Source: Hamadaea sp.
Lineage (GTDB): Bacteria > Actinomycetota > Actinomycetes > Mycobacteriales > Micromonosporaceae
Assembly: GCF_013362815.1 (NCBI RefSeq)
Contig: NZ_JABFVK010000119.1
Location: 1-37,989, forward strand
Reading direction: 5' to 3'
DNA length: 37,989 nt
Position 1 is the first letter of the stretch, and every line of letters starts with the position of its first letter. Below the pieces are notes generated by a model. The model did no database searches and was not told the DNA's origin. It saw nothing but the letters and a program-made list of their open reading frames with translations. Both the position numbers and the translations under genes were made by a program. Below are positions 15,968-30,868 of the stretch, in pieces.

Positions 15968-16999
15968 TCAGAGCAAGGCGAGGAAGGCGTCGGCGACCCG
16001 CTCCCGGCCCCGCCCGTCCACGACAGCCATCGCACGCGTAGACAGCTCTGTGCGTACAAGTGGATTGGAAAGAAGTTCACGGAGAGTGACCACCGCGGAC
16101 TCGGCGGCCGGCGACGACGCGTCGGCGAGGTCGCCGAGCAGGCCGATGCCGGCGGTGAGGCCGCGCGCCATGACCCGCTCGTAGCCGAGCCATTGATTGT
16201 CGACGACCCAGACCATCGCAGCCGCCGCGCCCAGGCACAGCAATTCCCATGTGGACGTACCCGACGCGCTGACCACGACGTCGGCGGCGGCGATGTGCTC
16301 GGGCAGCCGGTCGGTCGGATCGATGACCCGCAACTCCTGACCCGGCCCCGGGCGCAGCTGCTCCAGCTCCTTGCGCAGCTGCTCCGAGCCCGCGACCACG
16401 GTCGCGTCGACCGGCTCGCCCGTCGCGAGCACGAGCCGCGTGATCACCGGCCCCGCGCCGAACGCGTCCGTGCCGCCGAAGAACGCGAGCAGCTTCGGTC
16501 GTCCTTCATGGACGGTCTTCGGATGCTCGGGCCGCAGCCGGCGCACGGAATCGCGCAACAGCACGTACTTCAGGCCGGCGAGACGCGGCACGCTGGTCGG
16601 CACATCGGCCAGCTCCGCGTCCAGATTCTGGTCCAGGAACAGATCCGGTTCCTGACCGCGAGTGTCACCGTCCACAATAGCCAGCACTGGTACGCCGAAA
16701 GCCCGGACGGCGCCCGCACAGTGTGGATCCAATGTGTATGAATCCACCACGAGTCCGCTAAGCCGGAGTTCTCGTGCGGCCGCCACGAGATCGGCGGGCG
16801 TGTCCGGACCGGGCAGGAGTGGCAGGTCACGGTCTCGCAGTTCGCGTTCGGCCCAGCCCACCCCGCCGACGTCGCCCAGGAACACGACCTGTACGCCGCG
16901 CGCAGTGAGTTCCTCGGCGAGCGCGATGCCCCGGACCAGGTGGCCGACGCCCGTGGTGGGACCCGCGTCGCAGCGGATCCCGATCCGGCTGTCGCTCAC
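15968..16999 (-). CDS. pseG: PseG-like UDP-sugar hydrolase
   Basis: A 343-residue GT-B fold enzyme of the PseG/SpsG family. PseG removes UDP from UDP-2,4-diacetamido-2,4,6-trideoxy-beta-L-altropyranose, giving the free sugar for PseI. The N-terminus IGIRCDAGPTTGVGHLVRG contains the family G-x-GH motif with the catalytic-type histidine at residue 20, and the C-terminal half has the nucleotide-binding VVSASGTSTWELLCLG. The GTG at 16999 forms a GTGA overlap with the cytidylyltransferase stop, so the frame upstream is not used. The hydrolase, rather than a hydrolysing 2-epimerase, points to pseudaminic instead of legionaminic acid. It is the last gene of its operon. Confidence 0.85.
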   Translation of the reverse strand: MSDSRIGIRCDAGPTTGVGHLVRGIALAEELTARGVQVVFLGDVGGVGWAERELRDRDLPLLPGPDTPADLVAAARELRLSGLVVDSYTLDPHCAGAVRAFGVPVLAIVDGDTRGQEPDLFLDQNLDAELADVPTSVPRLAGLKYVLLRDSVRRLRPEHPKTVHEGRPKLLAFFGGTDAFGAGPVITRLVLATGEPVDATVVAGSEQLRKELEQLRPGPGQELRVIDPTDRLPEHIAAADVVVSASGTSTWELLCLGAAAAMVWVVDNQWLGYERVMARGLTAGIGLLGDLADASSPAAESAVVTLRELLSNPLVRTELSTRAMAVVDGRGRERVADAFLALL

Positions 17000-17739
17000 C
17001 CCTGATTCAGGGATTTCTGCTCGACATGGGCGTTGATCGCGGCGATCTCCGGATTGGCGGCCAGCCACTCCACCATCTTCTGCAGCGAGACGCTGGTGTC
17101 GCCGAAGTGCGCCACCGCCTCCTCGACGAGCCGCCAGTCGTCCTCGGTGTCGACGGTCAGCCGCAGCTGCGACCGATCCGGCGGCAGGGTCAGGCCCATG
17201 ACGCGGAACTGGTCCGGATTCGAGTACGCGTACGAGGTGACGTGGATGCGATGGAAGCCCTCGGCGATCTGCCCGATGCGGCGCAACGTGGCGGCGTCGA
17301 TGATCTCGACGTCCATCCCGAGCGGCAGCATCCGCTTGATCGAGGTGCTGAGGTAGTCCAGCCCCGGCACGCTGCGGAAGACCCGGCAGGCCAGCGCCAC
17401 GATCTCGGGGTCGATCAGCGGGTTGTCGGCGGAGAACCGCATGACGGCGTCGGCCGGGTGCTCGTCGAGCGCGCCGGTGAACCGGGTCAGCACGTCGTCG
17501 ACCGGACCCCGGTACGCCGGCACGCCGAGCCGCTCACACTCCGCGACGATCTCGTCGTCGATGTCCTCGACGGTGGTCGCGACGACCACCTTGTCCAGCG
17601 CGCCGCTCTCGTGGGCGGCGCGCACGACCCGGCCGAGCACCGTGCGCCCGGCCAGCGTCTTGAGGACCTTGCTGGGCAGCCGAGTAGAACCCATCCGCGC
17701 CTGAATGATGCCGACGACGCTGACGTGACCTGCTCTCAC
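16996..17739 (-). CDS. pseF: PseF/SpsF-like cytidylyltransferase
   Basis: A 247-residue nucleotidyltransferase of the acylneuraminate cytidylyltransferase/SpsF family. It should couple CTP to pseudaminic acid, giving the CMP-activated donor. The N-terminal nucleotide-binding segment GIIQARMGSTRLPSKVL (residues 10-26) is typical, followed by the D-x-D-like FSADNPLIDPEI for metal and substrate. The GTG at 17739 overlaps the preceding stop (GTGA); an in-frame GTG at 17721 starts closer to the conserved core. Assignment to PseF rather than another member of the family rests on the complete Pse set around it. Confidence 0.8.
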   Translation of the reverse strand: MRAGHVSVVGIIQARMGSTRLPSKVLKTLAGRTVLGRVVRAAHESGALDKVVVATTVEDIDDEIVAECERLGVPAYRGPVDDVLTRFTGALDEHPADAVMRFSADNPLIDPEIVALACRVFRSVPGLDYLSTSIKRMLPLGMDVEIIDAATLRRIGQIAEGFHRIHVTSYAYSNPDQFRVMGLTLPPDRSQLRLTVDTEDDWRLVEEAVAHFGDTSVSLQKMVEWLAANPEIAAINAHVEQKSLNQG

Positions 17740-19526
17740 GCCTCCTCCTGCTCCTCGCCGTTCCGACGGAGTACCCGTCTGGCCACGTCCAGAACGCGAC
17801 GAGCCAGCGCGAGGCCGAGCTTACCCATCCGAGCGGTGAAGGTTCCGCTCAGGAGTTCGACTCGCCCTTCCGCCTTACGCAGGGCTTTCTCCCGGCCGAG
17901 GAGCAGCTTCTCGTTCCACTTGTTGGTGGCCTTCTCATGATCGAGCTCCGCGCGCAGGCGCTCCACTGCGGCCCGCAGATCCTGGACGCTCTCCGCGCCC
18001 GGCGCGGTGATGCCCTGGTCGAGGCCGGTGAGCTTGACGCGCAGCTCGGCGATCTCGGCGTCGGTGAGGCCGAGTTCGGCCCCCGTGAGCTTGGCCTGCA
18101 GGTCCACCGCCTGACGCAGGACGTCGTCGCCGCCCCAGTCGTAGCCGGCGAGCCCGCCCAGTACCCGGGTCAACTCGTCGACGCTGTCGAGCTGCGGCCA
18201 CGGGTGCGAATATCCGGCGCCGATCAGCACGGTCGCGAAGTACCGCAGCGATCGGGCGACGGCCACCTCGACCGGCACGGTCAGCTCGGTCGACCAACTC
18301 GGGTCCCAGCGTACGAAGGTGTCGTCCACGACCAGCAGCTCGCTCGGCAGGATCAGCACATCCGCGCCGGAGACCCGGCCGTTGGCGTCCGCCCGGGTCG
18401 ACGCCCACGCCGCGAACTGGGCCAACGCCATCTGCAGACCCGGGACGTCACGGTGCATACCGAGCGCGATGAGGTGATCGAGTAGCGGAACGCCGTCGGG
18501 AACCGGGCCGTCGAGCGCCTGCGGGTCCCGGACCAGCACGTTGCGAGTGACCAGCGCCCGGGGGCCGAGCACCCGGCGGTTCCAGCCGTCGAGGTGCATC
18601 AGTTCGTAGCGGATCGGCCACGGCGCAGTGCGCTCGTCGCTGACCAGCGCCCGGGGCGTCAGGGTCTGCTGCCCCTCCCGGGTCGCCACCACCAGCCAGG
18701 CGGACGCGAGCGCGCTCCCGGCCTCGGCTCGCATCGCGCCGGACGCCAGCGGACGCGGGTCCATGAGCATCGTCTGGCCGTCGAAGGCCTGGTCGAACGC
18801 GGTCGTCACGACCGCCTGCAGGTGCACTTTGAGCTGCGGATCTACCGCGAGATCGAGCGGAACCAACGCGGTCGGACGCTGCGGATGTGGGAACGCCAGC
18901 ACGGTGGTCGACGGCTCGAGGCCGAACCCGGCGACGGTCGCGGCGAGCTCCCGAGCCGAGGCCGGCCGGGTCGCGTCGAAGCCGTCCGACGGCGTCCAGT
19001 CGGCGTCGGTACGCGTACCGCGCGGGGGGGTCAGCGCGGCCAGCCGATGGATGCCCAGCAGGTTCTCGTGCACGAGGGCGAGCGTGCCGCCGACGCCGAC
19101 CAGCCCGGCGACCAGCTCCGCCCGTTCCTGCCAGCTCAGCTGGGGGCCGTCGGCCGAGCTGAGCCGCTCGACGCCGCCGCCCACGAGAACCAGGTCGAAC
19201 GGTTCCGCCGAGTCGACCTTCGTCAGATCGCCGCAGAGCACCTCGACGCCGGGGTGGGCCTTGGCCGCCTTCGCGGCGTCCGGGTAGCTGCGGAGCAGGC
19301 AGGTGACCTGCATGCTCTCGGCTTCCAGCACCGACAGCACGGCGTCGTCGTGCAGCCCGGCCACGAACGCCCGGCCGCCGGGGCGTACCAGTTCGGTGAG
19401 CAGCTCGACCAGGACCGCGCCGCCGGCCGGCGTACGCTGCTGCTGCGGCTCGTCATCGCTCCAGACCAGCATTTCACTGCCGATCAGCCGCAAGTTGCCG
19501 GGGACCCCGCCGCTTGCCACTGTCAC
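17736..19526 (-). CDS. Methyltransferase-like protein with kinase-like motif and coiled coil
   Basis: A 596-residue protein that I cannot assign to a characterised family. Residues about 30-170 resemble a class I SAM-dependent methyltransferase (LVRPGGRAFVAGLHDDAV, FDLVLVGGGVE, later VGGTLALVHENL). Around 389-411, ADVLILPSELLVVDDTFVRW then DPSW resembles the catalytic C-lobe of kinase-like phosphotransferases (D-x3-P-x-N-x-LVV-DD-x7-D), with the usual N replaced by E. Residues about 513-560 form a charged coiled coil, and the end (GKLGLALARRVLDVARRVLRR) is a basic amphipathic helix that could bind the membrane. The order recalls the O-antigen chain-terminating protein WbdD. The GTG at 19526 overlaps the preceding stop (GTGA). 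A role in ending or sizing a nonulosonate-containing polymer is inference. Confidence 0.6.
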   Translation of the reverse strand: MTVASGGVPGNLRLIGSEMLVWSDDEPQQQRTPAGGAVLVELLTELVRPGGRAFVAGLHDDAVLSVLEAESMQVTCLLRSYPDAAKAAKAHPGVEVLCGDLTKVDSAEPFDLVLVGGGVERLSSADGPQLSWQERAELVAGLVGVGGTLALVHENLLGIHRLAALTPPRGTRTDADWTPSDGFDATRPASARELAATVAGFGLEPSTTVLAFPHPQRPTALVPLDLAVDPQLKVHLQAVVTTAFDQAFDGQTMLMDPRPLASGAMRAEAGSALASAWLVVATREGQQTLTPRALVSDERTAPWPIRYELMHLDGWNRRVLGPRALVTRNVLVRDPQALDGPVPDGVPLLDHLIALGMHRDVPGLQMALAQFAAWASTRADANGRVSGADVLILPSELLVVDDTFVRWDPSWSTELTVPVEVAVARSLRYFATVLIGAGYSHPWPQLDSVDELTRVLGGLAGYDWGGDDVLRQAVDLQAKLTGAELGLTDAEIAELRVKLTGLDQGITAPGAESVQDLRAAVERLRAELDHEKATNKWNEKLLLGREKALRKAEGRVELLSGTFTARMGKLGLALARRVLDVARRVLRRNGEEQEEA

Positions 19527-20425
19527 GCCATTACTCCTGCCATCGGGGATTCTGTCGCTGCCTCGACCGCTGGGTCGATTTCGAGGGATCGACGGAAGGC
19601 CACCTGCTCCTCGGTCCACCCGAACAGCCGGCGTACGGCCTCGGGCGGAAGGATGCGGTCAGCGCCCATCTCGTCGCGGGCGGTCTGGTGTGCCGCCGCC
19701 AGGTCCAGCTTCGCCCCGTGCATCTCCGGCCACAGCCGGCGTTGGCGGGCCACCCCGCCGAAGGTCGGATCCTCGTCCTGCAAGGTCATCGTGTCGCCGT
19801 AGACGGCCGGTTCGCACCCGGCCAGCGCGCCGTAGAAGACCGCGCTGCTCAGCCGATTGGACGCGACCCGCTTGTGCCGGCGCAGCTCGGCGAGCTGCCG
19901 GCTCAGGAAGAACCGGTCGGTATGCCGCCACCAGAAGCCCCGGTAACCGTGCGTCACGATACGGAAGCCCGCATCTTCGTAGATCCGGCGGACTCGGCGC
20001 ATCCGGTACTCGTTCCAGTACAGGCAGATCGTCACCGGCCCGTCCTCGACCTCGCGGATCTGCCGGATCAGCCGCTTGTGGTCGCCGTGGACGTGCTGGC
20101 CCTCCCACCCGTGGAACGGGTAGTAGATCGTGCCCTCCCGCTCCGGCAGATCGGCCGGCTCGGGCTCCATCGTCAGCAGGTACGCCCAGGGCGCACCCAC
20201 CACGACGACATTGCGGTAGCCGAGCGACCAGGACCTCCGGCGCTGCTTCTCCGACCAGACGAACAGCGGCGACCCGGCGACGTAAGGCGTACCGGGGGCG
20301 AGGCCGTCGCCGATGTTCCAGCCATGCTGGAGGTAGCCCTGGATGCGCGGCGCGGGGTCGAGGTCGATCCCGCAATATCGGGCCATCACGTCCGCGTGGC
20401 CGTAAAAGACGTTCGCGTGGTGCAT
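19523..20425 (-). CDS. Candidate glycosyltransferase in the Pse operon
   Basis: A 300-residue protein without a clear characterised relative. Two segments look like GT-B transferases acting on cell-surface polymers: IQGYLQHGWNIGDG (about 28-41), recalling the QHG motif of polysialyl- and glycerophosphotransferases, and RVASNRLSSAVFYGALAGCEPAVYGD (about 186-211), with the S-S-x3-A-x3-G pattern near the donor site. No signal peptide or membrane helix is seen, so it should act in the cytoplasm. Its place between pseC and the rest of the operon, with no Maf-type gene in the window, makes it the best local candidate for transferring the nonulosonic acid. The ATG follows GGAAG with an 8-base spacer. 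Confidence 0.5.
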   Translation of the reverse strand: MHHANVFYGHADVMARYCGIDLDPAPRIQGYLQHGWNIGDGLAPGTPYVAGSPLFVWSEKQRRRSWSLGYRNVVVVGAPWAYLLTMEPEPADLPEREGTIYYPFHGWEGQHVHGDHKRLIRQIREVEDGPVTICLYWNEYRMRRVRRIYEDAGFRIVTHGYRGFWWRHTDRFFLSRQLAELRRHKRVASNRLSSAVFYGALAGCEPAVYGDTMTLQDEDPTFGGVARQRRLWPEMHGAKLDLAAAHQTARDEMGADRILPPEAVRRLFGWTEEQVAFRRSLEIDPAVEAATESPMAGVMA

Positions 20426-20461: not shown

Positions 20462-21586
20462 TCAGCCGAGAATCGTACGGAGAGCTTCTACCACCCTATC
20501 CTGATCGTTTTCTGTCAACGTCGGGAACAGTGGCAGCGACAACTCCTCGGCGTAGAACTTCTCCGCGTTAGGGCACATCCCCCGTCGGTAGCCCAATTCC
20601 GCGTACGCCGGGTGCCAGTAGACCGGGATGTAGTTGACCTGCACCCCGATCCCGGCAGCCCGAAGCTTGTCGTAGACCTCCCGGCGGCGGCCGTCCAGCA
20701 CGCGCACGGGATACAGGTGGTACGCCGGGTCGACCCAGTCGCGTTCGACCGGCAGCCGCAGGCCCGGCACGTCGGCGAGCAGCTCGTTGTACCGGGCGCG
20801 CAGCGCCGTCCGGCGGGCCTTGAACGCGCCGAGCCGGGTCAGCTGAGCCCGGCCGAGCGCGCAGAGGACGTCCGGCAGCCGGTAGTTGACGCCGAACTCC
20901 TGGACCTCGTAATACCAACCGCCGTCGGTCGGGTTCGCGAAGTCGGCCTCCTCGCGGATCATCCCGATGCCCTTGAACCGGCGCGCCCGCTTCATCAGCT
21001 CCGAATCGGGGGAGGCCACGCCACCGCCCTCGGCGGTGGTCAGGTTCTTGGTCGGGAAGAACGAGAACGTCGTGAGGTCGGCCAGCGACCCGACGAACCG
21101 GCCCTTGTAGGTGCCGCCGATCGCGTGCGCCGCATCGGCCAGGACCAGCGCCCCCACCTCGTCGGCGACCTTGCGGAGCTCGTCGTACTCCGCCGGGTGG
21201 CCGGCGTAGTCGACGGCGGCGATCACCTTCGTCCGCTCGGTCGTCACCGCCGCGGCGGCGGCCGGATCGAGGTTGGCGGTGTCCTCCTCGACGTCGGCGA
21301 AGACGACCTCGGCCCCGAGGATCGTCGCGCAGGAGGCGGTCGCCACGAAGGTCATCGGCGTGGTGACCACCTCGTCGCCGGCCTTGATCCCGGCGGCGGC
21401 GTACGCCACGTGCAGCGCGGCGGTGCCGTTGCTGACCACCGTGACCGGTACGCCACCGGTCCACTCGGCGAGATCCCGCTCGAAGGCGTCGACCTGAGGC
21501 CCGGTGGTGAGCCAGTCACTTCGCAGCGCCTCGGTGACGGCTGCGATGTCGGAGTCCTCGATCGTCTGCTTGCCGTACGGGAGCAT
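20462..21586 (-). CDS. pseC: PseC-like UDP-sugar aminotransferase
   Basis: A 374-residue PLP-dependent aminotransferase of the DegT/DnrJ/EryC1/StrS family. PseC converts the 4-keto-6-deoxy-L-sugar made by PseB to the 4-amino sugar, using glutamate. Landmarks are NGTAALHVAYAAAGI (53-67), the PLP-binding DAAH (D151), and SFFPTKNLTTAEGG with the Schiff-base lysine K180. Length is normal for the family. The ATG has an AGGAGG six bases upstream. It lies 58 bases downstream of pseB in the same operon. The neighbourhood rather than the sequence alone decides PseC against related aminotransferases of dTDP-sugar pathways. Confidence 0.88.
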   Translation of the reverse strand: MLPYGKQTIEDSDIAAVTEALRSDWLTTGPQVDAFERDLAEWTGGVPVTVVSNGTAALHVAYAAAGIKAGDEVVTTPMTFVATASCATILGAEVVFADVEEDTANLDPAAAAAVTTERTKVIAAVDYAGHPAEYDELRKVADEVGALVLADAAHAIGGTYKGRFVGSLADLTTFSFFPTKNLTTAEGGGVASPDSELMKRARRFKGIGMIREEADFANPTDGGWYYEVQEFGVNYRLPDVLCALGRAQLTRLGAFKARRTALRARYNELLADVPGLRLPVERDWVDPAYHLYPVRVLDGRRREVYDKLRAAGIGVQVNYIPVYWHPAYAELGYRRGMCPNAEKFYAEELSLPLFPTLTENDQDRVVEALRTILG

Positions 21587-21644: not shown

Positions 21645-22628
21645 TCAGGCTTGCATCCCGAGGATCTCGCGCAACTGCTCGGCCGAAAGCCACATGTCGT
21701 TGTTGTCCGAGCGGTAGTTGAAGTCTTCCGCGACGGGCTCGGCGTCGGCCGGGGGGATGTAGCCCCACTCGGCGATGGTGGGCTGCACGACGTAGCGGTC
21801 GGTGAGGCGTACCGTGCGGTGCGCGTCGTCGATCGCGATCATCTCCTCGTGCAGCTTCTCGCCCGGTCGGATGCCGATCTCGTGCGTGGCGCTGCCCGGG
21901 GCCACCGCCTCGACCAGGTCGCCGATCCGCATGCTCGGGATGCGCGGCACGTAGAGCTCGCCGCCGTTCATCAGGTCGAACGAGTCGACGACGAACTGGA
22001 CGGCCTGCTCCAGGGTGATCCAGAATCGGGTCATCCGCTTGTCGGTGATCGGCAGGCTCTCGCCCTCGGCGGCGAGCTTGCGGAACAGCGGGACGACCGA
22101 GCCGCGGCTGCCCATCACGTTGCCGTAGCGGACCACGGAGAACCGGGTCGGGTACGCGGCCGCGTAGTGGTTGGCCGAGACGAAGAGCTTGTCGGCGACG
22201 AGCTTGGTCGCGCCGTAGAGGTTGATCGGGCTCGACGCCTTGTCGGTGGAGAGCGCGACGACCTTCTTCACCCCGTTGTCGATCGCGGCCTCGATGACGT
22301 TCTGCGAGCCGGCGACGTTCGTGCGGACGAACTCGAACGGGTTGTACTCGGCAGTGTCGACCTGCTTGAGAGCCGCCGCATGCACGACATAGTCGACCTT
22401 GTGCATGGCCCGGGTCAGCCGCTCGCGGTCCCGGACGTCGCCGATGAACCAGCGCAGCCGCTCGTCGTTGCCGAACATCTGGCGGACCTCGTACTGCTTC
22501 AGCTCATCCCGCGAGAGGATCACCAGCCGGGCAGGGTCGAGGTTGTCCAGCGCGTAGCGCAGGAATGCCTTGCCGAACGAACCCGTCCCACCAGTGACAA
22601 GAATGGACGAACCCTGCAGCACGCTCAC
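21645..22628 (-). CDS. pseB: PseB, UDP-GlcNAc 4,6-dehydratase (5-inverting)
   Basis: A 327-residue short-chain-dehydrogenase-fold enzyme performing the first step of pseudaminate synthesis, converting UDP-GlcNAc to the 4-keto-6-deoxy-L-arabino sugar with bound NADP. The Rossmann motif TGGTGSFGKAF is at 12-22. The catalytic set is STDKA (D129, K130) and YGATK (Y138, K142), as in FlaA1/PseB enzymes. The frame is open upstream, but the GTG at 22628 is preceded by AAGGAG with a 6-base gap and starts directly before the Rossmann fold. Length (Campylobacter PseB is about 330) supports this. It is the promoter-proximal gene of a six-gene operon. Confidence 0.93.
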   Translation of the reverse strand: MSVLQGSSILVTGGTGSFGKAFLRYALDNLDPARLVILSRDELKQYEVRQMFGNDERLRWFIGDVRDRERLTRAMHKVDYVVHAAALKQVDTAEYNPFEFVRTNVAGSQNVIEAAIDNGVKKVVALSTDKASSPINLYGATKLVADKLFVSANHYAAAYPTRFSVVRYGNVMGSRGSVVPLFRKLAAEGESLPITDKRMTRFWITLEQAVQFVVDSFDLMNGGELYVPRIPSMRIGDLVEAVAPGSATHEIGIRPGEKLHEEMIAIDDAHRTVRLTDRYVVQPTIAEWGYIPPADAEPVAEDFNYRSDNNDMWLSAEQLREILGMQA

Positions 22629-22878: not shown

Positions 22879-23121
22879 GTGATCGAGATCGACCGGCTGC
22901 GCAAGGTCTTCCGCTCCTCGCTCGAGCTGCCCGAGGACTACGACGTCGACGGCCTCGAGTACCGCGGGATCGAGAAGTGGGACTCGCTGGCCCACATGTC
23001 CCTCGTCGCGGCGATCGAGGACGAGTTCGACGTCATGATCGACACCGACGACGTGATCGACATGAGCTCTTTCGGCAAGGCCCGCGAGATTCTGGGCAAG
23101 CACGGTGTCGAGTTTGCCTGA
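22879..23121 (+). CDS. Acyl carrier protein
   Basis: An 80-residue carrier protein. The phosphopantetheine attachment site is WDSLAHMSL with serine 36, followed by the acidic helix II and III ([20 protein letters not shown]) typical of ACPs. The start is a GTG with TTGGAGGA upstream. It is the first gene of a five-gene plus-strand operon of acyl-handling enzymes. It is probably a dedicated carrier separate from the fatty acid synthase ACP, since the operon has its own AMP-forming ligase to load it. Similar small ACPs occur in nonulosonate and flagellin-glycosylation islands of Gram-negative bacteria. Confidence 0.9.
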
Positions 23122-23890
23122 AGTTAGTTCTCCTGAAGTTCACTCGCCGGACAGCCCCACGCGTGTGGCGCTCGTCACCGGCGGGTCGCGCGGCATCGGC
23201 CGGGCCGTCGCCGAGCGGCTGGCCACCGACGGGTACGCCGTAGCGGTCCACGCGAGCACCCTGGCCAACGCCGAACCGGTCGCCGCGGAGCTGGCCGGCA
23301 AGTACGGCGTACCGACGCTGGCGGTGGCCGGTGACGTGAGCGACCCGGCTGCGGTGAAGACTGCCGTCCGGAGGGTGTTCGAGCAGTTCCGGCGGCTGGA
23401 CGCGCTCGTCGTCGGAGCCGGTACGCACGAGGCCGGCATGCTCGGGATGCAGTCCGACGCCAGCATCCAGCGGCTGTTCGACGTGAACGCGGTCGGCGCG
23501 GCGCACACCCTTCAGCACGCCGCCCGGCTGCTCCGCCGGGGCGACTCCCCCGCCGTCGTGCTCGTCGCCTCGGTGATGGGCCGGGTCGGCGGGGCCGGTC
23601 AGGCCGTCTACTCGGCGACCAAGGCTGCCGTCATCGGCCTGACCCTGGCCGCCGCCAAGGAGCTGGGCCCGGCCGGCATCCGGGTCAACGCCGTCGCGCC
23701 CGGCTTCATCGAGACCGACATGCTCAGCACGCTGGACGAGGCCGGCCGGACCGAGGTCGTCGCGGCCACTCCGCTGCACCGGCTGGGCCGCCCGCAGGAT
23801 GTGGCCGACGCAGTCGCGTTCCTGCTCTCCCCGCAGGCCTCGTTCGTCACCGGACAGGTCCTCGGCGTCGACGGAGGCGTAATTCGATGA
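23105..23890 (+). CDS. FabG-like short-chain dehydrogenase
   Basis: A 261-residue NAD(P)H-dependent reductase of the classical SDR family, closest in pattern to 3-oxoacyl-ACP reductases. Motifs: TGGSRGIG (25-32), an active-site serine in [15 protein letters not shown] with catalytic Y and K, and the C-terminal GQVLGVDGG. It may reduce a 3-oxo group on an acyl chain carried by the ACP, or a keto group on the sugar. The GTG at 23105 overlaps the end of the ACP gene by 17 bases; a later start near [10 protein letters not shown] is possible. The stop overlaps the next gene (ATGA). Confidence 0.85.
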
Positions 23891-25272
23891 TCAGCTTGGT
23901 CGGGCCGGGGGCCCGGCTGGTCGACGCCGCCACCGGTGACGTCCTGGCCGGCGAGGAATTGGCGGACCGGGTCGCGGCAACGGCCGAGCAGGCGGCGACC
24001 TGGCCCGGCGTGCTGTTCGCACACTTCCCGGCCACGATCGACGCCGTCGTCGGCTACCTGGGCGCGCTGCAAGCCGGCCGGCCGATCTGCCTGCTCGACC
24101 CCGATCTGCATACCGATCTGCGGGATCGCCTCGTGGCCCGGTTCGAGCCCGGCGCGATCACCGGCGGCAAGGGCGACCTGCCGCCCGGCTATCACGACGA
24201 GGGCGGCGTCTGGCTACGGGACGAGCCGTCGGCAGTCACTCCGCATCCCGACCTTGCCCTGCTGCTGACGACCTCCGGCTCGACCGGCGACCCCAAGCTC
24301 GTCCGGCTGACCCCGACCGCGGTCGAGTCCAACGCCCGGGCGATCGCGGCGGCCCTCGGCATCGACGGCGGCGAGGTCGCGATCACCAGCCTTCCGCTTT
24401 TCTACTCGTACGGGATGTCGGTGCTGAATTCGCATCTGATCAGCGGTGCGACGGTGGTGGTGTCGCCGCGTACGTTCCTGGAGCGGGAGTTCTGGAACGA
24501 CGTGAACACCTATGGCGTCACCAGCCTTGCTGCGGTGCCATATCAGTACGAGATGCTCAAGCGGCTGCGTTTCGACCCTTCGCGCTATCCGACTCTGCGT
24601 ACGCTCACGCAGGCGGGCGGACGGCTGAAGGCCGAGCTGATCGTCGACTTCCACGGGCGCATGTCGGCCGTCGACGGCCGGATGTTCGTGATGTACGGCC
24701 AGACCGAGGCCGGTCCCCGGATGACGACGCTGCCTTCGGCGTACCTGCCGGCGAAGGTCGGCTCGGTCGGCCCGGCCCTGCCCGGCACCGAATTGTTCAT
24801 CCGGACCGAAAACGGTGCCGAGACCACCGAACCCGATGTCGAGGGGGAGGTCATCTTCCGCGGCCCCAACGTCATGATGGGGTACGCCACCGCCGCGGCC
24901 GACTTCGCGACCGGCGACGAGCTGGGCGGCCGGCTGTCGACCGAAGACCTCGGGAAGCTCGACGCCGACGGGCACTTGTGGATCACCGGACGGCTCAAGC
25001 GGATGGGCAAGATCTTCGGCATCCGGGTCAACCTGGACGACGTAGAACGGCTGCTCACCGACACTCCGCCGGTCGCAGCCGTCCCCGGTGACGACCGGCT
25101 GACCGTCTTCGTGGAGTCCGGCGAGGAGCAGTGGCCGGCCAAGATCAAGGCTCGGCTGGCCGAGGCACTCGGCATCCACTCCAGCGGTTTCGACGTGCGC
25201 AGCATCACCGCTCTGCCGCTCCTGGCCAACGGTAAGGTCGATTATCGGAAGCTGGCGGAGGAGGGCGCGTGA
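23887..25272 (+). CDS. AMP-forming acyl ligase
   Basis: A 461-residue member of the ANL superfamily (acyl-CoA synthetases and adenylation domains), somewhat short for the family because the N-terminal part is compact. The ATP-binding loop [10 protein letters not shown], the A5 motif YGQTEAGP, the hinge region [20 protein letters not shown] and the C-terminal catalytic lysine in NGKVDYRKL (K450) are all present. It should adenylate a carboxylic acid and transfer it to the phosphopantetheine of the ACP two genes upstream, or to CoA. The chain length cannot be judged. It is coupled on both sides: ATGA with the reductase and GTGA with the LuxE-like gene. Confidence 0.9.
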
Positions 25273-26321
25273 GCGAGGAAGTCTTCACGCTGAAGCAGCC
25301 GGAGAAGGACGAGCGCCTGCTCGAGCAGCTGAGCGCGCTCACCCGGCACCATCGCGAACGCAGCCCGGAGTACGACCGTATCCTGCTGGCCAGCGGCCAG
25401 GCCCAGGACTCCTACGCCAGCGTCTACGACCTGCCCTGGCTCCCGGTCCGGATGTTCAAGAACCACCACCTCAAGAGCATCCCGGACGACGAGATCGTCA
25501 AGGTCCTCACCTCCAGCGGCACCACCGGCGACGTCAGCCGGATCTATCTCGACCGCGACGCCGCCGCTGCGCAGACCCGGATGCTGTCCCGGACGTTGCA
25601 AACCGTGCTCGGCCCGAAGCGGCTGCCCATGCTCATCGTCGACAGCCGCGGTGTCGTCGCCGACCGGCGCAGCTTCAGCGCCCGGGGCGCGGGCATGCTC
25701 GGCCTGATGAACTTCGGCCGCGACCACGTCTGGGTGCTCGACGAGAACGGCGAGCCGGACGTCGAGGTGCTCAAGCAGTTCCTCGCCAAACATGGCGACC
25801 AGCCGTTCCTCATCTTCGGCTTCACCTTCATGGTGTGGCTCTACCTCTACGAGGCCGCCCGCGACGCCGGGCTGGACCTGTCCAACGGCATCCTGATCCA
25901 CTCCGGCGGCTGGAAGAAGCTCATCGACCGGGCCGTGGACAACGCGGAGTTCCGCCGTCGGCTCGCCGAGGACATCGGCCTCACCAAGATCCACAACTTC
26001 TACGGCATGGTCGAGCAGATCGGCACGATCTACCTGGAAGGGCCGGACGGCGGCGGGCTGTACTGCCCCGACTTCGCCGACGTCATCATCCGGGACCCCG
26101 AGACCTGGGAAGTCGCGCCGATCGGCACGCCTGGGCTCATCGAAGTCACCAGTACGCTGCCGACGTCGTACCCCGGACACGTGCTGCTGACCGAGGATCT
26201 CGGTGTGGTGCATGGCGTCGACGACGGAGCCTGGCCGGGCAAGCGGTTCAGCGTCCTGGGCCGGCTCCCCCGCGCCGAAGCCCGCGGATGCAGCGACACC
26301 TTCACCGGAGGCGACCGATGA
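25269..26321 (+). CDS. LuxE-like acyl-protein synthetase
   Basis: A 350-residue protein of the LuxE/PaaK-related family. In luminous bacteria LuxE activates a fatty acid with ATP, holds it on a cysteine near its C-terminus and passes it to LuxC. Here TSSGTTGDVSR (about 90-100) is the ATP-binding loop and FYGMVEQIGTIYLE the second conserved block. LGRLPRAEARGCSDTF ends the protein with a cysteine at position 341, ten residues from the C-terminus, which matches the acylated cysteine of LuxE. The start is a GTG overlapping the ligase stop (GTGA). No luciferase genes are present in the window, so the acyl group must serve another purpose. Confidence 0.85.
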   Translation: MSEEVFTLKQPEKDERLLEQLSALTRHHRERSPEYDRILLASGQAQDSYASVYDLPWLPVRMFKNHHLKSIPDDEIVKVLTSSGTTGDVSRIYLDRDAAAAQTRMLSRTLQTVLGPKRLPMLIVDSRGVVADRRSFSARGAGMLGLMNFGRDHVWVLDENGEPDVEVLKQFLAKHGDQPFLIFGFTFMVWLYLYEAARDAGLDLSNGILIHSGGWKKLIDRAVDNAEFRRRLAEDIGLTKIHNFYGMVEQIGTIYLEGPDGGGLYCPDFADVIIRDPETWEVAPIGTPGLIEVTSTLPTSYPGHVLLTEDLGVVHGVDDGAWPGKRFSVLGRLPRAEARGCSDTFTGGDR

Positions 26322-27550
26322 AGATCGAGGTACGCTTCCCGGCCGGTCCGCAGGCCGAGATCGACGACGTCATCGCGGGAGTGACCGCCGAGCCCGAGGG
26401 CGGTCGGCTCGTCCCCGGCGACCCCCGGGTCGTCGACTTCCTCACCGCGCTGGCCCGGCGGCTGCTGGCTCCCTCGATCGCCCGCCGTCATCCCGAACTG
26501 GGCTCGCTCGGCTTCTTCCTGCGCAAGACCGAGATCCGCAAGACACTGGAGCATCTGCGCCGCGAGGGCGACGACGCGCTGGTCTTCCCGCGCGGTCTCG
26601 TCTTCCACGTCCCGCCGGCCAATGTGGACACCATCTTCGTCTACTCCTGGGCGCTGTCGGCGCTGGCGGGCAACCCCAACATCATCCGGATCTCGTCGCG
26701 GGCCGCCGGCGCGGCGCTGACGATTCTGGAGACGCTGAACGAGTGCCTGGCCGATGCGCACCCCGCCATCGGCCAGACTCAGCGGATGATCACCTACGGC
26801 CACCAGGACGAGGTCACCGCGGCGCTGAGCGCTGCCTGCGATCTCCGGGTCATCTGGGGCGGTGATCGCACCGTACGCGACATCCGGCGGCACCCGCTCG
26901 CGCCGCACGCCCGGGACGTCACGTTCCCCGACCGCTCCTCGTACGCCGCGATCTCCCTCGCGGGCTGGCAGGCGACCGACGCCGAGGGCCGCAAGCGGGC
27001 CGCCGAAGGGCTGGTCAACGACGTCTACTGGTTCGACCAGGCGGCCTGTTCCTCGCCGATGGCGATCTACCTCGTCGGCGACGCCGGTCAGGCACCCGCC
27101 GTGAAAGAGGAGCTTCTGAGCCTCGTCGCGCAGGGCGCTCGGGCGCAGGGATTCGCCGTCGACGCCGCGATGGCGGTGGAGAAACGCGTCTCGACGTACG
27201 GCCTGGCTGCGGAAGGCAGAGCCACCGCGTTGGACCTGGCCGACAACACCGTCACGGGCGTTACGCTGACCAGCCCGGACGCCGTGCCGCACGACTGGCT
27301 GGGTGCGGGCGTCTTCCCGTTCACCACGGTCGGGTCGCTGGCCGAGATCGCGCCGCTGATCACCCGCAAGGACCAGACCTTCAGCCACTTCGGATTCACC
27401 CGGGACGAACTTATCGCCTTCGCCCATCAGTTGGGCGGACGCGGCGTCGATCGGATCGTCCCGTTCGGACAGGCGCTGAACTTCGCGGGAGTATGGGACG
27501 GCTACGACCTCATCCGTGAGTTCGGCCGCCTCGTGACCGTCACCGCCTGA
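26318..27550 (+). CDS. LuxC-like acyl reductase
   Basis: A 410-residue aldehyde-dehydrogenase-fold protein of the LuxC acyl-CoA reductase family, which reduces acyl groups with NADPH to aldehydes through a thioester on the enzyme. The catalytic cysteine is in WFDQAACSSP (C244), and the nearby ANVDTIFVYSWALSALAGN (101-119) is the usual cofactor-side block. It is about 60-70 residues shorter than Vibrio LuxC, mainly at the N-terminus. The ATG at 26318 overlaps the LuxE stop (ATGA); the open frame upstream is a shadow. It is the last gene of the operon, followed by an inverted repeat. LuxE plus LuxC together imply an aldehyde product or a reductive transfer. Confidence 0.88.
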   Translation: MKIEVRFPAGPQAEIDDVIAGVTAEPEGGRLVPGDPRVVDFLTALARRLLAPSIARRHPELGSLGFFLRKTEIRKTLEHLRREGDDALVFPRGLVFHVPPANVDTIFVYSWALSALAGNPNIIRISSRAAGAALTILETLNECLADAHPAIGQTQRMITYGHQDEVTAALSAACDLRVIWGGDRTVRDIRRHPLAPHARDVTFPDRSSYAAISLAGWQATDAEGRKRAAEGLVNDVYWFDQAACSSPMAIYLVGDAGQAPAVKEELLSLVAQGARAQGFAVDAAMAVEKRVSTYGLAAEGRATALDLADNTVTGVTLTSPDAVPHDWLGAGVFPFTTVGSLAEIAPLITRKDQTFSHFGFTRDELIAFAHQLGGRGVDRIVPFGQALNFAGVWDGYDLIREFGRLVTVTA

Positions 27551-27625: not shown

Positions 27626-28420
27626 CTACCAGGCAGTCCATCCACCGTCGACGACGACGTTCGCCCCGGTGGTGTAACTCGACCGCGGAGACGCGAGAAA
27701 AAGCAGCGCAGTAGCGATCTCTTCAGGAGATCCGACCCGCCCCAACGGGGAGTGTTCGCCGAGCGCCTGAAGGAATTCCGGGTCGCCCCCACCGGGAAAT
27801 GCCCCTGGCGTCAGCGCGTTCACGCGTACACCTTGGGGGGCAAGCTCGACCGCCGCGTAGCGCGTGAGCTGCAGCAAGCCTGCTTTGACGGCGCCGTAGT
27901 AGGGCGGGTTGACCTGCTCGGGACTCGCGTAGAGCGAGGGCCGGGGGCTGACCAGGCCGTACATCGACGACACGGTGATGACCGCGGGCGACGAGTCGGC
28001 GGCGGCGCGGACCAGGAGGTCGCGGGTGGCGGCGAGCAGGCGTTGGAAGGCGGCGAGCGCGAGGTCGGCGGCCTGGGCGAAGTCTTCCGTGCGAGCGGTG
28101 GCCAGCGTTCCGCCGCGCCCGACATGCGCATTGTGCACCAGGACGTCCACGCGCCCCGGACCGACGCTCAGTGCCAGGCCGAGCGCCTGGACATCGTCGG
28201 GATTCGTGACGTCGCATCGGGCGCTCACCGCGGACAGGCCGTCGGCCAGCAACTCTTCCGTCAAAGCATCCAATGTGGAGGAATCTCGCCCGACCAGCCA
28301 GACCTGCGCACCCGCCGTGGCAAGCGTCCGGGCCATGACGCGGCCGAGCCGACCGGTCGCACCCGTCACCACCGCGATCTTGCCGCTCAAACCGAACAGC
28401 GCCTCGGGCGTCAGGTTCAT
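27626..28420 (-). CDS. Short-chain dehydrogenase, sugar-type
   Basis: A 264-residue classical SDR with TGATGRLG (about 20-27), NAH in place of the common NNAG/NAG motif, VSSMYG with the active serine, and YYGAVKAGL with catalytic tyrosine and lysine. The C-terminal GANVVVDGGWTAW is typical. Related oxidoreductases (for example PtmA of Campylobacter) sit in nonulosonate clusters, where they adjust precursor oxidation state; this resemblance is by context and fold only. The ATG at 28420 overlaps the aldo/keto reductase stop (ATGA), favouring it over the GTG at 28435. It is the last gene of the pseH operon. Confidence 0.82.
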   Translation of the reverse strand: MNLTPEALFGLSGKIAVVTGATGRLGRVMARTLATAGAQVWLVGRDSSTLDALTEELLADGLSAVSARCDVTNPDDVQALGLALSVGPGRVDVLVHNAHVGRGGTLATARTEDFAQAADLALAAFQRLLAATRDLLVRAAADSSPAVITVSSMYGLVSPRPSLYASPEQVNPPYYGAVKAGLLQLTRYAAVELAPQGVRVNALTPGAFPGGGDPEFLQALGEHSPLGRVGSPEEIATALLFLASPRSSYTTGANVVVDGGWTAW

Positions 28421-29301
28421 CGCGCGCTCCCCCACGTGCTCGGATCCACCAGCTGCACGGGCAGCGGCGGCAACCGATCCAAGATCATTTCACGCTCGAC
28501 CGCTGTGAGCCCCGTCCGGCTCGCGAGCCGGACGTTCTCGCCGAGCTGGTCCAGCGTCTCGGCCCCGATCACGACCGAGGTCACCCAGCTCAAACCTAAG
28601 GGGTACGCGACCAGGAGGCCGGCTCGGTTCGGAAAACCGAGTTCCGCCGCGACCTCGTCAAGCACGCGCACCGCGGCGTCCCGGTCCTCGTCGGGGACGT
28701 GCGGCCAGCGGACGGCGCTCCCGGCGGTCAGCAGCCCTTGCAGGTAAACACTGCGAACCGTGACGACCACGTCGTCGGCGAGGACGTCCGCGACCCCAGC
28801 GGAGGTCCAGCGCCGGTCGACCACGTTGCAGGGCAGCTGGACGTACCCGAGATCGGGGAGCTTGGCGACCTCGAACAGCTCCGCCGGATTCTGCACGGAC
28901 ACGCCGATCCGGTCGGCTCTTCCTTCGTCCTTGACTCTTCGAAGCGCATCCCACGCGATCGGCACGTCGGCCGCCCGATGCAGGAGGAACGTGGCGCTCT
29001 TCTCATGGAGCGCGGTGAGGCTGGCGGTCACGCTCGCCTCGACGTCCGTCTCGCCCGGTGCGACCTTGGTGATCACCTTCGGCTTCACCGGAGCTGCGCC
29101 GATGCGCGCTTCGCTTTCGCCGTACGCCCGCGCGGTGTCCACATGGGTCACCCCGAGCTCGGCGGCCTTCGCCAGCAAGGCGTCGACCGCCGTCTGATCG
29201 AGATCCCCGGTCGTGTTGGCGATCCCGTACGCCATCCCCAGTTGGGCCGCACCGAGAACCAGGGCGGACTGGCGAAAGCCGCCCTGGTCGCGTACGGGCA
29301 A
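28417..29301 (-). CDS. Aldo/keto reductase
   Basis: A 294-residue aldo/keto reductase. The N-terminus has LGAAQLGMAYGIAN, then THVDTARAYGESE with the catalytic aspartate and tyrosine (about 53-65). The family lysine is in VITKVAPGE and the histidine in FLLHRAADV. It is expected to reduce a sugar keto or aldehyde group with NADPH. Genes of this type occur in several bacterial nonulosonate clusters without a settled role. The apparent start is a TTG at 29301, nine bases after the PseI stop, without a clear Shine-Dalgarno sequence, which suggests translation by reinitiation. The stop is coupled to the SDR gene. Confidence 0.82.
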   Translation of the reverse strand: MPVRDQGGFRQSALVLGAAQLGMAYGIANTTGDLDQTAVDALLAKAAELGVTHVDTARAYGESEARIGAAPVKPKVITKVAPGETDVEASVTASLTALHEKSATFLLHRAADVPIAWDALRRVKDEGRADRIGVSVQNPAELFEVAKLPDLGYVQLPCNVVDRRWTSAGVADVLADDVVVTVRSVYLQGLLTAGSAVRWPHVPDEDRDAAVRVLDEVAAELGFPNRAGLLVAYPLGLSWVTSVVIGAETLDQLGENVRLASRTGLTAVEREMILDRLPPLPVQLVDPSTWGSAR

Positions 29302-29309
29302 CGGGGTGC

Positions 29310-30359
29310 TCAGATGAGGTCCCAGCTCAGTGGGGTGCCCTTGGCGGCGTCGCGGGTGAAGGTGCGGCCGAGGACTTTGTCGATCTCGATCGGGGGCAGG
29401 CCGTTGGCGGGCCGGATCGAGCGCACGTTGGCCGGGGTGACCGGGTCACCGGCCTGGACGTCTTCGACCACGTACAGCGAACGGCGGAACCGCAGGCCTT
29501 CCTTCTCCGACTCGGTCGGGCCGATGTGCGTACTGCCCAGGGCGAGCCAGGCACGTTCGGACTCGTCGACCAGGGCACGCATCTCGGCCGGGGTCATCGA
29601 GAACGCCGAGTCGACCCCGCCGTCCTCCCGGGCCAGGGTGATGTGCTTTTCGATCACGGTCGCCCCGAACGCCACACTGGCGATCGGCACCCCGATGCTG
29701 AGCGTGTGATCCGACAGACCGACCTGTACGCCGAAGGCCTCGGCCAGGATCGGGATGCGCCGCAGGTTGGAGTCTTGCGGCGGCGACGGATACGACGCGG
29801 TGCAGGCCAGCAGCACGATCTGGGTCGCACCCGCACCACGGGCGGTGTCCAGCGCGGCGGCGATGTCGGCGACGCTGGCCATCCCAGTGGAGATGATCAA
29901 CGGTTTGCCGGTCTGCGCGGCGAGCCGGATCAGCGGCAGGTCCACCAGCTCCGACGAAGCGATCTTGTACGCCGGTGCGCCCAACGACTCCAGCAGCTCG
30001 ATCGCGGTCGGGTCGAACGGGGCCGAGAACACGGTCAGCCCGTGCGACGCGGCCCGCTGGAAGATCGGCTGGTGCCACTCGAACGGCGTGTGCGCCTTCT
30101 GGAACAGCTGATACAGCGACTCGCCGCCCCACAGGTCGTGCCCGGCCGAGATCCGGAACTCCGGGGTGTCCACGTCGATCGTGATCGTGTCCGGGGTGTA
30201 GGTCTGCAACTTCAACGCATGCGCACCGGACTCGGCGACCGCGTCGACGATCTGCAACGCCCGCTCCAGGGAACCGTTGTGGTTACCCGACATCTCGGCG
30301 ATGACGAACGGCCGATGCCCCGGCCCGATCAGATGACCACCGATCTTGATCTCGGTCAC
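29310..30359 (-). CDS. pseI: PseI, pseudaminic acid synthase (NeuB family)
   Basis: A 349-residue NeuB-family synthase that condenses the diacetamido-trideoxy-L-altrose made by PseG with phosphoenolpyruvate to give pseudaminic acid. The barrel spans about 15-275 with FVIAEMSGNHNGSLERA (18-34), KLQTYTPDTI (50-59), SAPFDPTAIELLESL, KIASSEL and the metal-ligand-type SDHTLSIGVP. The C-terminal SAF (antifreeze-like) domain covers about 290-345 (RRSLYVVEDVQAGDPVTPAN). The TYTPDTITID pattern is more like PseI than sialic acid NeuB, in my judgement. The ATG overlaps the PseH stop (ATGA). Confidence 0.9.
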   Translation of the reverse strand: MTEIKIGGHLIGPGHRPFVIAEMSGNHNGSLERALQIVDAVAESGAHALKLQTYTPDTITIDVDTPEFRISAGHDLWGGESLYQLFQKAHTPFEWHQPIFQRAASHGLTVFSAPFDPTAIELLESLGAPAYKIASSELVDLPLIRLAAQTGKPLIISTGMASVADIAAALDTARGAGATQIVLLACTASYPSPPQDSNLRRIPILAEAFGVQVGLSDHTLSIGVPIASVAFGATVIEKHITLAREDGGVDSAFSMTPAEMRALVDESERAWLALGSTHIGPTESEKEGLRFRRSLYVVEDVQAGDPVTPANVRSIRPANGLPPIEIDKVLGRTFTRDAAKGTPLSWDLI

Positions 30360-30868
30360 TTCGTTCTCCCCTTCCGGTCGGCCGCGCTGAGCTCGGTCCA
30401 GACGACTTCCTGCGGCACCCCGTCGACCTCGCGCTCGTAGCGCCGGGTCTCGGTGAATCCCATCCGCTTGTGCAACTGCAACACCGGGGTGTTCCAGGCG
30501 AGCGTCTCGCCCCCGATCAGCTCGGCGCCGAGCACGTCGAAGGCGTACGCCACGGCGTCCTTCTCCAGCTGCACCCAGGCGGGCAACAGCTCACCCTTCG
30601 CCTGGAGCGTCTCGTTGTCGAGGTAGAACCCCCAGACGACGCCGTGCTCGGCGGCCTCCCGGGCGTCGAAGCTGACCACCCCGGCCGGCTCTCCCCGCCA
30701 CTCGAAGATCAAGACGCGCCTTTTCTCGTCCGCCGCGACGGCGGCCCACCAGGCGGCGTGCTCCTCCGGGCGGATCTCATGCGTCGTGAAGCTCACCTTG
30801 CGTACTTCGGGGTGATTGCGCCAGGTCAAGACGATGTCCCGGTCGGAATCGGTCGCGTCGCGCAGCAC
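30356..30868 (-). CDS. pseH: PseH-like N-acetyltransferase (GNAT)
   Basis: A 170-residue GNAT-fold acyltransferase. PseH acetylates the 4-amino group of the PseC product from acetyl-CoA. The N-terminus LRDATDSDRDIVLTWRNHPEVRKVS and EHAAWWAAV are typical of PseH-like and RimJ/RimL-like members. The later WNTPVLQLHKRMGFTETRRY is the conserved C-terminal GNAT block. The start is a GTG with no ribosome binding site but a -10 box six bases upstream, suggesting a leaderless mRNA. If the lux-like operon supplies unusual acyl groups, this enzyme is one possible acceptor step; that is inference. Confidence 0.85.
   Translation of the reverse strand: MLRDATDSDRDIVLTWRNHPEVRKVSFTTHEIRPEEHAAWWAAVAADEKRRVLIFEWRGEPAGVVSFDAREAAEHGVVWGFYLDNETLQAKGELLPAWVQLEKDAVAYAFDVLGAELIGGETLAWNTPVLQLHKRMGFTETRRYEREVDGVPQEVVWTELSAADRKGRTK

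Follow-up and report, generated by a model that had tools for sequence, protein, structure and literature searches.

We analysed a stretch of 37,989 nucleotides from Hamadaea sp. (assembly GCF_013362815.1, contig NZ_JABFVK010000119.1, positions 1 to 37,989), referred to here as the window. A module of five plus-strand genes, encoding an acyl carrier protein (ACP), a short-chain dehydrogenase/reductase (SDR), an AMP-forming ligase, a LuxE-type synthetase and a LuxC-type reductase, sits between two minus-strand arms of a pseudaminic-acid-like locus. The upstream arm encodes PseB, a PseC-type aminotransferase, two proteins termed X and Y, a cytidylyltransferase and a PseG-like hydrolase, and the downstream arm a second SDR, an aldo/keto reductase, PseI and a PseH-type GNAT N-acyltransferase. 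Sequence comparisons suggest that the five genes probably form a portable acyl-donor cassette, which would provide a hydroxyacyl-ACP for the N-acylation of an amino sugar.

The five-gene module

The module genes have the following coordinates and family matches:
22879-23121, plus strand: ACP with the phosphopantetheine serine S36; PF00550 at 20.4 bits, slightly below the cut-off of 20.8
23105-23890 (start perhaps 23165), plus strand: FabG-like SDR, proposed semialdehyde (or ketoacyl) reductase; PF13561 (adh_short_C2) at 198 bits
23887-25272, plus strand: AMP-forming ligase, proposed to load the acid onto the ACP; PF00501 (AMP-binding) at 145 bits
25269-26321, plus strand: LuxE-type acyl-protein synthetase with C341; PF04443 at 174 bits, cut-off 24.9
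26318-27550, plus strand: LuxC-type acyl-thioester reductase with C244; PF05893 at 87 bits, cut-off 21

The mechanical open reading frame (ORF) of LuxC extends further, and the ATG at 26318 is its likely start. All five genes overlap, and the 4-bp overlaps at the SDR/ligase, ligase/LuxE and LuxE/LuxC junctions suggest that the module genes are translationally coupled. Conserved residues were followed in alignments. Over distant copies, S36 was invariant in 7 ACPs, the TSGSTG loop and K450 in 8 ligases, C341 in 5 LuxE and C244 in 6 LuxC proteins, and N128, S156, Y169 and K173 were invariant in 7 SDRs. The first-pass annotation of this DNA had described five coupled plus-strand genes with S36, K450, C341 and C244, and the coordinates, strand, families and invariant residues were confirmed.

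When the two Lux-type proteins were aligned to the LuxC-LuxE complex of PDB 7xc6, which we take to be the Photobacterium complex, C341 corresponded to a cysteine of 7xc6_E and C244 to a cysteine of 7xc6_A. These cysteines of 7xc6 are presumably the acyl-carrying ones. Both enzyme families are common to the window and the luminescence system, but the lux operon differs from the module, as the window has neither a luciferase match nor LuxD and has an ACP, a ligase and an SDR instead. A Pfam search of 42 window ORFs, covering all 33 predicted genes, gave no match to a ketosynthase or a luciferase, in line with the first reading of the DNA. No iron- or zinc-type alcohol dehydrogenase was matched among these ORFs; the SDR occupies the module instead. 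The scores of the module LuxE and LuxC were far below the luminescence equivalog cut-offs (66.2 versus 550 and 45.2 versus 750), and the SDR was below the FabG equivalog cut-off (214 versus 297.75). Across the 7.45 Mb of the genome, which is 97.47% complete, PF04443 matched LuxE alone.

Conservation, pairing and apparent exchange of the module

Relatives of the module were collected by a scan of genome contigs from 84,980 species, which gave at least 595 pattern matches, at least 570 of them encoding LuxE relatives. The best 80 of these at least 570 LuxE relatives, all of them from actinobacterial loci, were taken together with L004 (Nonomuraea) and the window as a set of 82 loci; more distant homologues and their neighbours stand outside the counts. 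The flanks in view were up to 10 kb, 15 kb for L004 and longer for the window. The order and strand of the five genes were kept in 82 of 82 loci, which argues that the gene set is not due to chance. A DegT-type sugar aminotransferase was in view in 81 of the loci, a Gfo/Idh oxidoreductase in 44, PseB in 26 and PseI in 16. The module had been tied to sugar genes from the start, and homologues lying mostly without sugar-pathway genes were not what we found in this sample, as the aminotransferase count documents. The narrower tie to nonulosonate loci did not hold up, since PseB, the Gfo/Idh oxidoreductase and the acyltransferase described below (hexapeptide instead of PseH-type in 49 of 82) point to a wider range of loci.

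Among 200 genomes of the family Micromonosporaceae, with the window's own genome counted, LuxE was present in 57 and PseI in 66. Both were found in 42 genomes, in 38 of which they lie 2-28 kb apart (Fisher p 3.6e-14 for the co-occurrence, kinship ignored); 15 genomes had LuxE without PseI and 24 PseI without LuxE. In a phylum-wide sample LuxE occurred in 2 of 296 genomes, one of the two being the window's own. An actinobacterial version, which had been expected to be noteworthy, is not exceptional within the family, though it is rare across the phylum.

Outside the counted set, a Deinococcus polysaccharide locus has the same five-gene order, and in Ponticoccus four genes keep it while LuxC lies nearby on the opposite strand. 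Phage-borne copies were sought in viral contigs, where 74 pattern matches contained no relative. On Rhizobium plasmids (L007, L008) LuxE-LuxC was accompanied by an ACP, a ligase, an opposite-strand SDR and a two-part transketolase, and also by a putative acyl-ACP:UDP-GlcNAc acyltransferase, FabZ and a GMC oxidoreductase. This set may be a further variant that builds a different acyl group. A LuxE-LuxC-SDR trio of a Pantoea plasmid (L174:7962-11354; LuxE 26% identity) was set aside, as no sugar-pathway genes are annotated in 17 kb. The trio adjoins peptide-transport and peptidase genes, and maltose transport is the sole sugar-related annotation in this stretch. A LuxE-like gene of a Salmonella plasmid was set aside likewise.

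The N-ACYLTRANSFERASE pairing was observed in 72 of the 82 loci, where an N-acyltransferase was in view, in 53 loci within 1 kb of the module. The enzyme was of the hexapeptide type in 49 loci and a PseH-type GNAT in 23; no locus had both and 10 had neither. All of these 10 loci show pseB, pseC, pseF and pseG in the flank, and in related genomes PseI and PseH are often more than 10 kb away, often beyond the flanks. In seven loci (L009, L011, L012, L017, L019, L022, L058) a PseH-type gene adjoins the ACP, and neither PseB nor PseI is in view; the genomes of L009, L011 and L022 (by coordinate match G358, G399 and G408) had no PseI anywhere at E <= 1e-60. This argues that the acyltransferase goes with the module and not only with the Pse pathway. 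The cassette-associated PseH-type proteins were below the PseH equivalog cut-off in 11 of 11 scored cases, the window's included. The more distant loci also have such an enzyme, in Ponticoccus a PseH-type gene directly after luxE and in Deinococcus a PglD-like hexapeptide enzyme after luxC.

An apparent natural swap was seen in Pse loci of relatives without the module, defined by the lack of a LuxE match in the genome at E <= 1e-20. This set comprised 22 of the 24 genomes with PseI only, in 23 stretches, of which 21 hold PseH (not L126 and L151). In the 45 module rows, LuxE was inside the stretch in 29 and elsewhere in the genome in 16. PseH proteins were called for the identity comparison at 38% identity or more and a coverage of at least 80%. 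Their identity to the window PseH was 47.9-68.9% in 43 loci with the module and 40.3-50.0% in 21 loci without it, the ranges overlapping at the edges only. The mean identities to the window of the other proteins, with and without the module, were 77.9 and 77.2 for PseB, 69.8 and 70.0 for PseC, and 72.3 (35 loci) and 73.8 (22 loci) for PseI, with lone extra copies excluded.

On a PseH tree of 66 rows (62 different, as some rows are from the same strain), all 21 no-module PseH proteins formed one clade with a support of 100/98.6. A PseI tree of 58 of these loci was not split by module status, and the module labels required three changes on it. L153, which is from the window's genus and has no module, grouped with the window on this PseI tree, a quick tree in which L153 has a long branch. 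The PseB of L153 is 91% identical to that of the window and the PseH 50%. At the position of the tyrosine in the solved PseH 4xpk, a histidine was found in 45 of 45 module PseH proteins and an asparagine in 21 of 21 no-module proteins. This tyrosine presumably corresponds to Tyr138 of the H. pylori PseH, the putative general acid of that enzyme.

The no-module loci have parts of their own. In all 21 loci a different SDR, 31-35% identical to the module SDR, is encoded no more than 4 kb from PseH, and the ACP, LuxE and LuxC of the module gave no match in these stretches. Three of the loci (L130, L153, L134) were opened and showed an AMP ligase and a protein of 83-93 residues beside the SDR. ACP, ligase and SDR of this alternative cassette were confirmed by Pfam or alignment in L153 and L134, and ligase and SDR in L130. 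Its parts are 14-34% identical to the module's counterparts, the ligases 21-24%. A protein of 129-137 residues is also encoded beside the alternative SDR (L153:1826-2239, L130:11222-11611), and the L153 copy had no Pfam match. Judged by these sequences, the cassette and its PseH seem to be swapped together.

The surrounding locus

Pse genes had been noted on both sides of the module, and this proved right, with pseB upstream and pseI and the PseH-type gene downstream. The sugar is named pseudaminic-acid-like because PseB and PseI alone reach the NCBIfam equivalog cut-offs:
15968-16999 (ORF to 17068), minus strand: PseG-like UDP-sugar hydrolase; TIGR03590 at 123.5 bits, below the cut-off of 153.55
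16996-17739, minus strand: PseF-like cytidylyltransferase; PF02348 at 93 bits, TIGR03584 at 35.6 with a cut-off of 205.7
17736-19472, minus strand: Y, conserved partner of X; no family match
19523-20425, minus strand: X, conserved in Pse loci, candidate nonulosonate transferase; no family match
20462-21586, minus strand: PseC-type aminotransferase; TIGR03588 at 416.3 bits, below the cut-off of 423.5
21645-22628, minus strand: PseB, UDP-GlcNAc 4,6-dehydratase (inverting); TIGR03589 at 493.4 bits, above the cut-off of 407.75
27626-28435, minus strand: second SDR, between the module and pseI and outside the conserved five; PF13561 at 155 bits
28417-29301, minus strand: aldo/keto reductase adjoining pseI, outside the conserved five; PF00248 at 71.7 bits
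29310-30359, minus strand: PseI, nonulosonate synthase; TIGR03586 at 461.1 bits, above the cut-off of 340.25
30356-30868, minus strand: PseH-type GNAT N-acyltransferase, proposed to use the acyl-ACP that the module provides; TIGR03585 at 85.6 bits, below the cut-off of 93.1

X was found in 22 and Y in 23 of the 82 loci (the Y family has 28 genes). The two are a conserved pair of Pse loci, at 17736-20425 in the window, and are sometimes present in two copies per locus. The structural model of X was weakly GT-B-like, with a mean confidence (pLDDT) of 76.6 and weak matches to GT-B enzymes at a TM score of about 0.3, and X may be the transferase of the sugar. The second SDR and the aldo/keto reductase are also present in L124, L168 and L169. 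A second PseI, 99% identical to that of the window, is encoded at G000:C72:19979-21019 (L123:10979-12019) between a subtilase and a LysR regulator. No further pse-gene match lies within 20 kb of this lone copy, and another lone second PseI occurs in a genome of the same genus (L125). Flagellin was considered as the target of the glycan and rejected, as PF00669 had 0 matches in the 97.47% complete genome, while 4 of 14 control genomes had a match.

Proposed route and alternative explanations

The gene set, its order, the conserved residues, the association with either of two N-acyltransferase folds and the tracking of cassette type by PseH type are read from sequence. On this basis we infer the order of the reactions, a C4 acyl group, ACP over CoA as the donor and the destination of the sugar. 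LuxE would adenylate a small carboxylic acid, probably a C4 dicarboxylate (malate or succinate, for instance) activated at one of its carboxyls, and hold the acyl group on C341. The acyl group would then pass to C244 of LuxC and be reduced to a semialdehyde, which the SDR would turn into a hydroxy acid. The ligase would adenylate the remaining carboxyl and put the acid on the ACP, and the neighbouring N-acyltransferase, PseH-type here and hexapeptide-type in other loci, would transfer the acyl group to the amino sugar. The acceptor in the window would be the amine at C4 of the sugar made by PseC, the later N-7 of the nonulosonate. Such a route uses both acyl-activating enzymes and does not need a ketosynthase. 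Two such enzymes in one operon had been called unusual; they need not be odd, as they fit two steps of one route. Of the acyl or aldehyde group first proposed for a glycan, the acyl group remains the likely product, while the aldehyde is more likely an intermediate.

Similar gene sets are known from Gram-negative bacteria, for which passages of the published papers were used. PMC7874193 describes a Group II polar flagellin glycosylation island of Aeromonas in 98 strains, with orf1-orf3-luxE-luxC downstream of pseH in AH-3, which bears out the mention of lux-like and ACP genes of Aeromonas in the first-pass annotation. The published gene list has the same five annotated functions in the same listed order and includes pse genes with pseH, but it belongs to a flagellin island, and the window's genome has no PF00669 match. 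The authors present these as fatty-acid or aldehyde genes for a possible liposugar; the N-acyl role is our own proposal. For flagellin glycosylation islands of enterobacteria, Acp, FabG, CaiC, LuxE and LuxC are listed in 71-80 strains each (PMC4875605). These are the same five families, their joint occurrence being implied and not stated, and again with flagellin as target and a liposugar component as the reading. For the actinobacterial version of the module we found no paper in the open-licence PMC literature, and nothing usable there on acyl groups in actinobacterial teichulosonic-acid chemistry.

The tetronate genes rfbKLMNO/wbe (VC0248-VC0252) of V. cholerae O1 were compared by their descriptions. 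They share with the module a carrier protein, an AMP ligase, a LuxE function and, on the route proposed here, the N-acylation of an amino sugar. RfbM, presumably an alcohol dehydrogenase, had no iron- or zinc-type counterpart among the 42 window ORFs searched, and the SDR stands in the module instead. A 1995 paper on the pathway (Morona) reportedly calls it putative in its title. According to PMC12208996, RfbL activates 2,4-dihydroxybutanoate and links it either to CoA or to the carrier RfbK, and deletion of wbeL led to a loss of the O1 antigen (PMC3441752). In contrast to the separate gene in the window, LuxE is there a domain of RfbN (PMC4772473), and the sugar is perosamine, not a nonulosonate.

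An outside hint comes from the glycan masses of Aeromonas AH-3 (Group II). The passages of PMC7874193 give units of 376, 162, 203 (with phosphate or methyl) and 102 Da, among them a Pse derivative of 376.14 Da and an unexplained unit of 102 Da. We calculated 376.148 for Pse5Ac7Ac with a dihydroxybutyryl group replacing one acetyl, and 102.03 for dihydroxybutyryl. By this analogy the AH-3 masses hint at a dihydroxybutyryl group. A Pse that bears a 4-hydroxybutyryl group in amide linkage has been described (PMC9912281).

Several points weigh against the proposed route. The mass of 376.148 also fits an O-methylglyceroyl group, and the published 376.14 has been rounded. The comparison strains are weak and do not decide the mass argument. 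One paper assigns Pse5Ac7Ac to A. caviae Sch3 (PMC9290775) and another Pse5Ac7Ac9Ac to A. caviae (PMC4691044), and the passages used do not say that Sch3 lacks the module. AH-1 has an unexplained glycan of 403 Da, and a '376 Da sugar' also appears in a figure legend of the AH-1 paper; should AH-1 lack the module, this would speak against a link between 376 and the module. In NCBIfam the top scores of the SDR are glucose-dehydrogenase/FabG-like and include no known semialdehyde reductase. The no-module cassette also has a ligase and an SDR; the substrate of the SDR might accordingly be a keto group bound to the ACP, and LuxE/LuxC might have a separate task. The H. pylori PseH uses acetyl-CoA, and the use of an ACP by PseH here is a guess. 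Finally, one genus (g2) contributes 17 of the 21 PseH rows without the module, which implies few independent swaps, in keeping with the three label changes on the PseI tree.

In a first alternative, the N-acyl donor (3-hydroxybutyryl-ACP, for instance) would be the product of ACP, ligase and SDR, and LuxE/LuxC would supply an aldehyde of their own for a different step on the same glycan. A ligase, an SDR and an ACP (the ACP confirmed by Pfam in 2 of the 3 opened) are present in the no-module loci, with no LuxE or LuxC match in the stretch, which indicates that these proteins can work without LuxE/LuxC, and a FabG-like SDR would suit such a donor. However, the five genes are never separated or reordered in the 82 loci, irrespective of the sugar, and this fits one route better than two. 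The SDRs of the two locus types are also only 30-34% and the ligases 21-24% identical. We regard two separate products as rather unlikely, though they deserve to be kept in mind. LuxE and LuxC of luminous bacteria act on fatty acids, and the module's product could be a long-chain fatty aldehyde or acyl group by which the glycan is lipidated, in keeping with the liposugar suggested in both PMC7874193 and PMC4875605. This we consider improbable, since LuxE (66 versus 550) and LuxC (45 versus 750) are far below the fatty-acid equivalog cut-offs and the AH-3 masses reported in the passages of PMC7874193 contain no unit of fatty-acid size.

The PseH type could also differ by lineage alone, the module having no functional tie to it. 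The concentration of no-module rows in g2 is what such an explanation would predict, but the mean identities of PseB, PseC and PseI are nearly the same with and without the module. L153 is of the window's genus and has a PseB of 91% identity, yet its PseH is of the no-module type at 50%. In addition, PseH-type genes adjoin the module in genomes without PseI, so we give lineage alone little credence. The acyl-donor cassette can be extended to a broader, tentative proposal, which we consider possible but far from assured. Interchangeable cassettes, each inherited with its own N-acyltransferase, would feed different short acids into conserved amino-sugar pathways; LuxE/LuxC would serve as a dicarboxylate-to-semialdehyde reductase for the ACP-bound hydroxyacyl donor, and PseH would have switched from acetyl-CoA to acyl-ACP. 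The split between histidine and asparagine at the tyrosine position of PseH is a hint for this switch.

Taken together, the module is real and recurrent, and its type has precedents in glycan loci of Gram-negative bacteria, with its gene list published for Aeromonas. What is new is this version of it, an actinomycete form that serves a Pse-like sugar in a genome without detectable flagellin, together with sequence evidence for an N-acyl-donor cassette that is co-inherited with its acyltransferase. The proposal gives the lux-like genes, which the passages of PMC7874193 and PMC4875605 leave as fatty-acid or liposugar genes, a job and a testable product mass. It predicts a hydroxyacyl group instead of a plain acetyl on many actinomycete surface nonulosonates, with the PseH sequence type being predictive of which. 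If it is true, the LuxE/LuxC relatives of many non-luminous bacteria would be short-chain acid reductases for the decoration of sugars.

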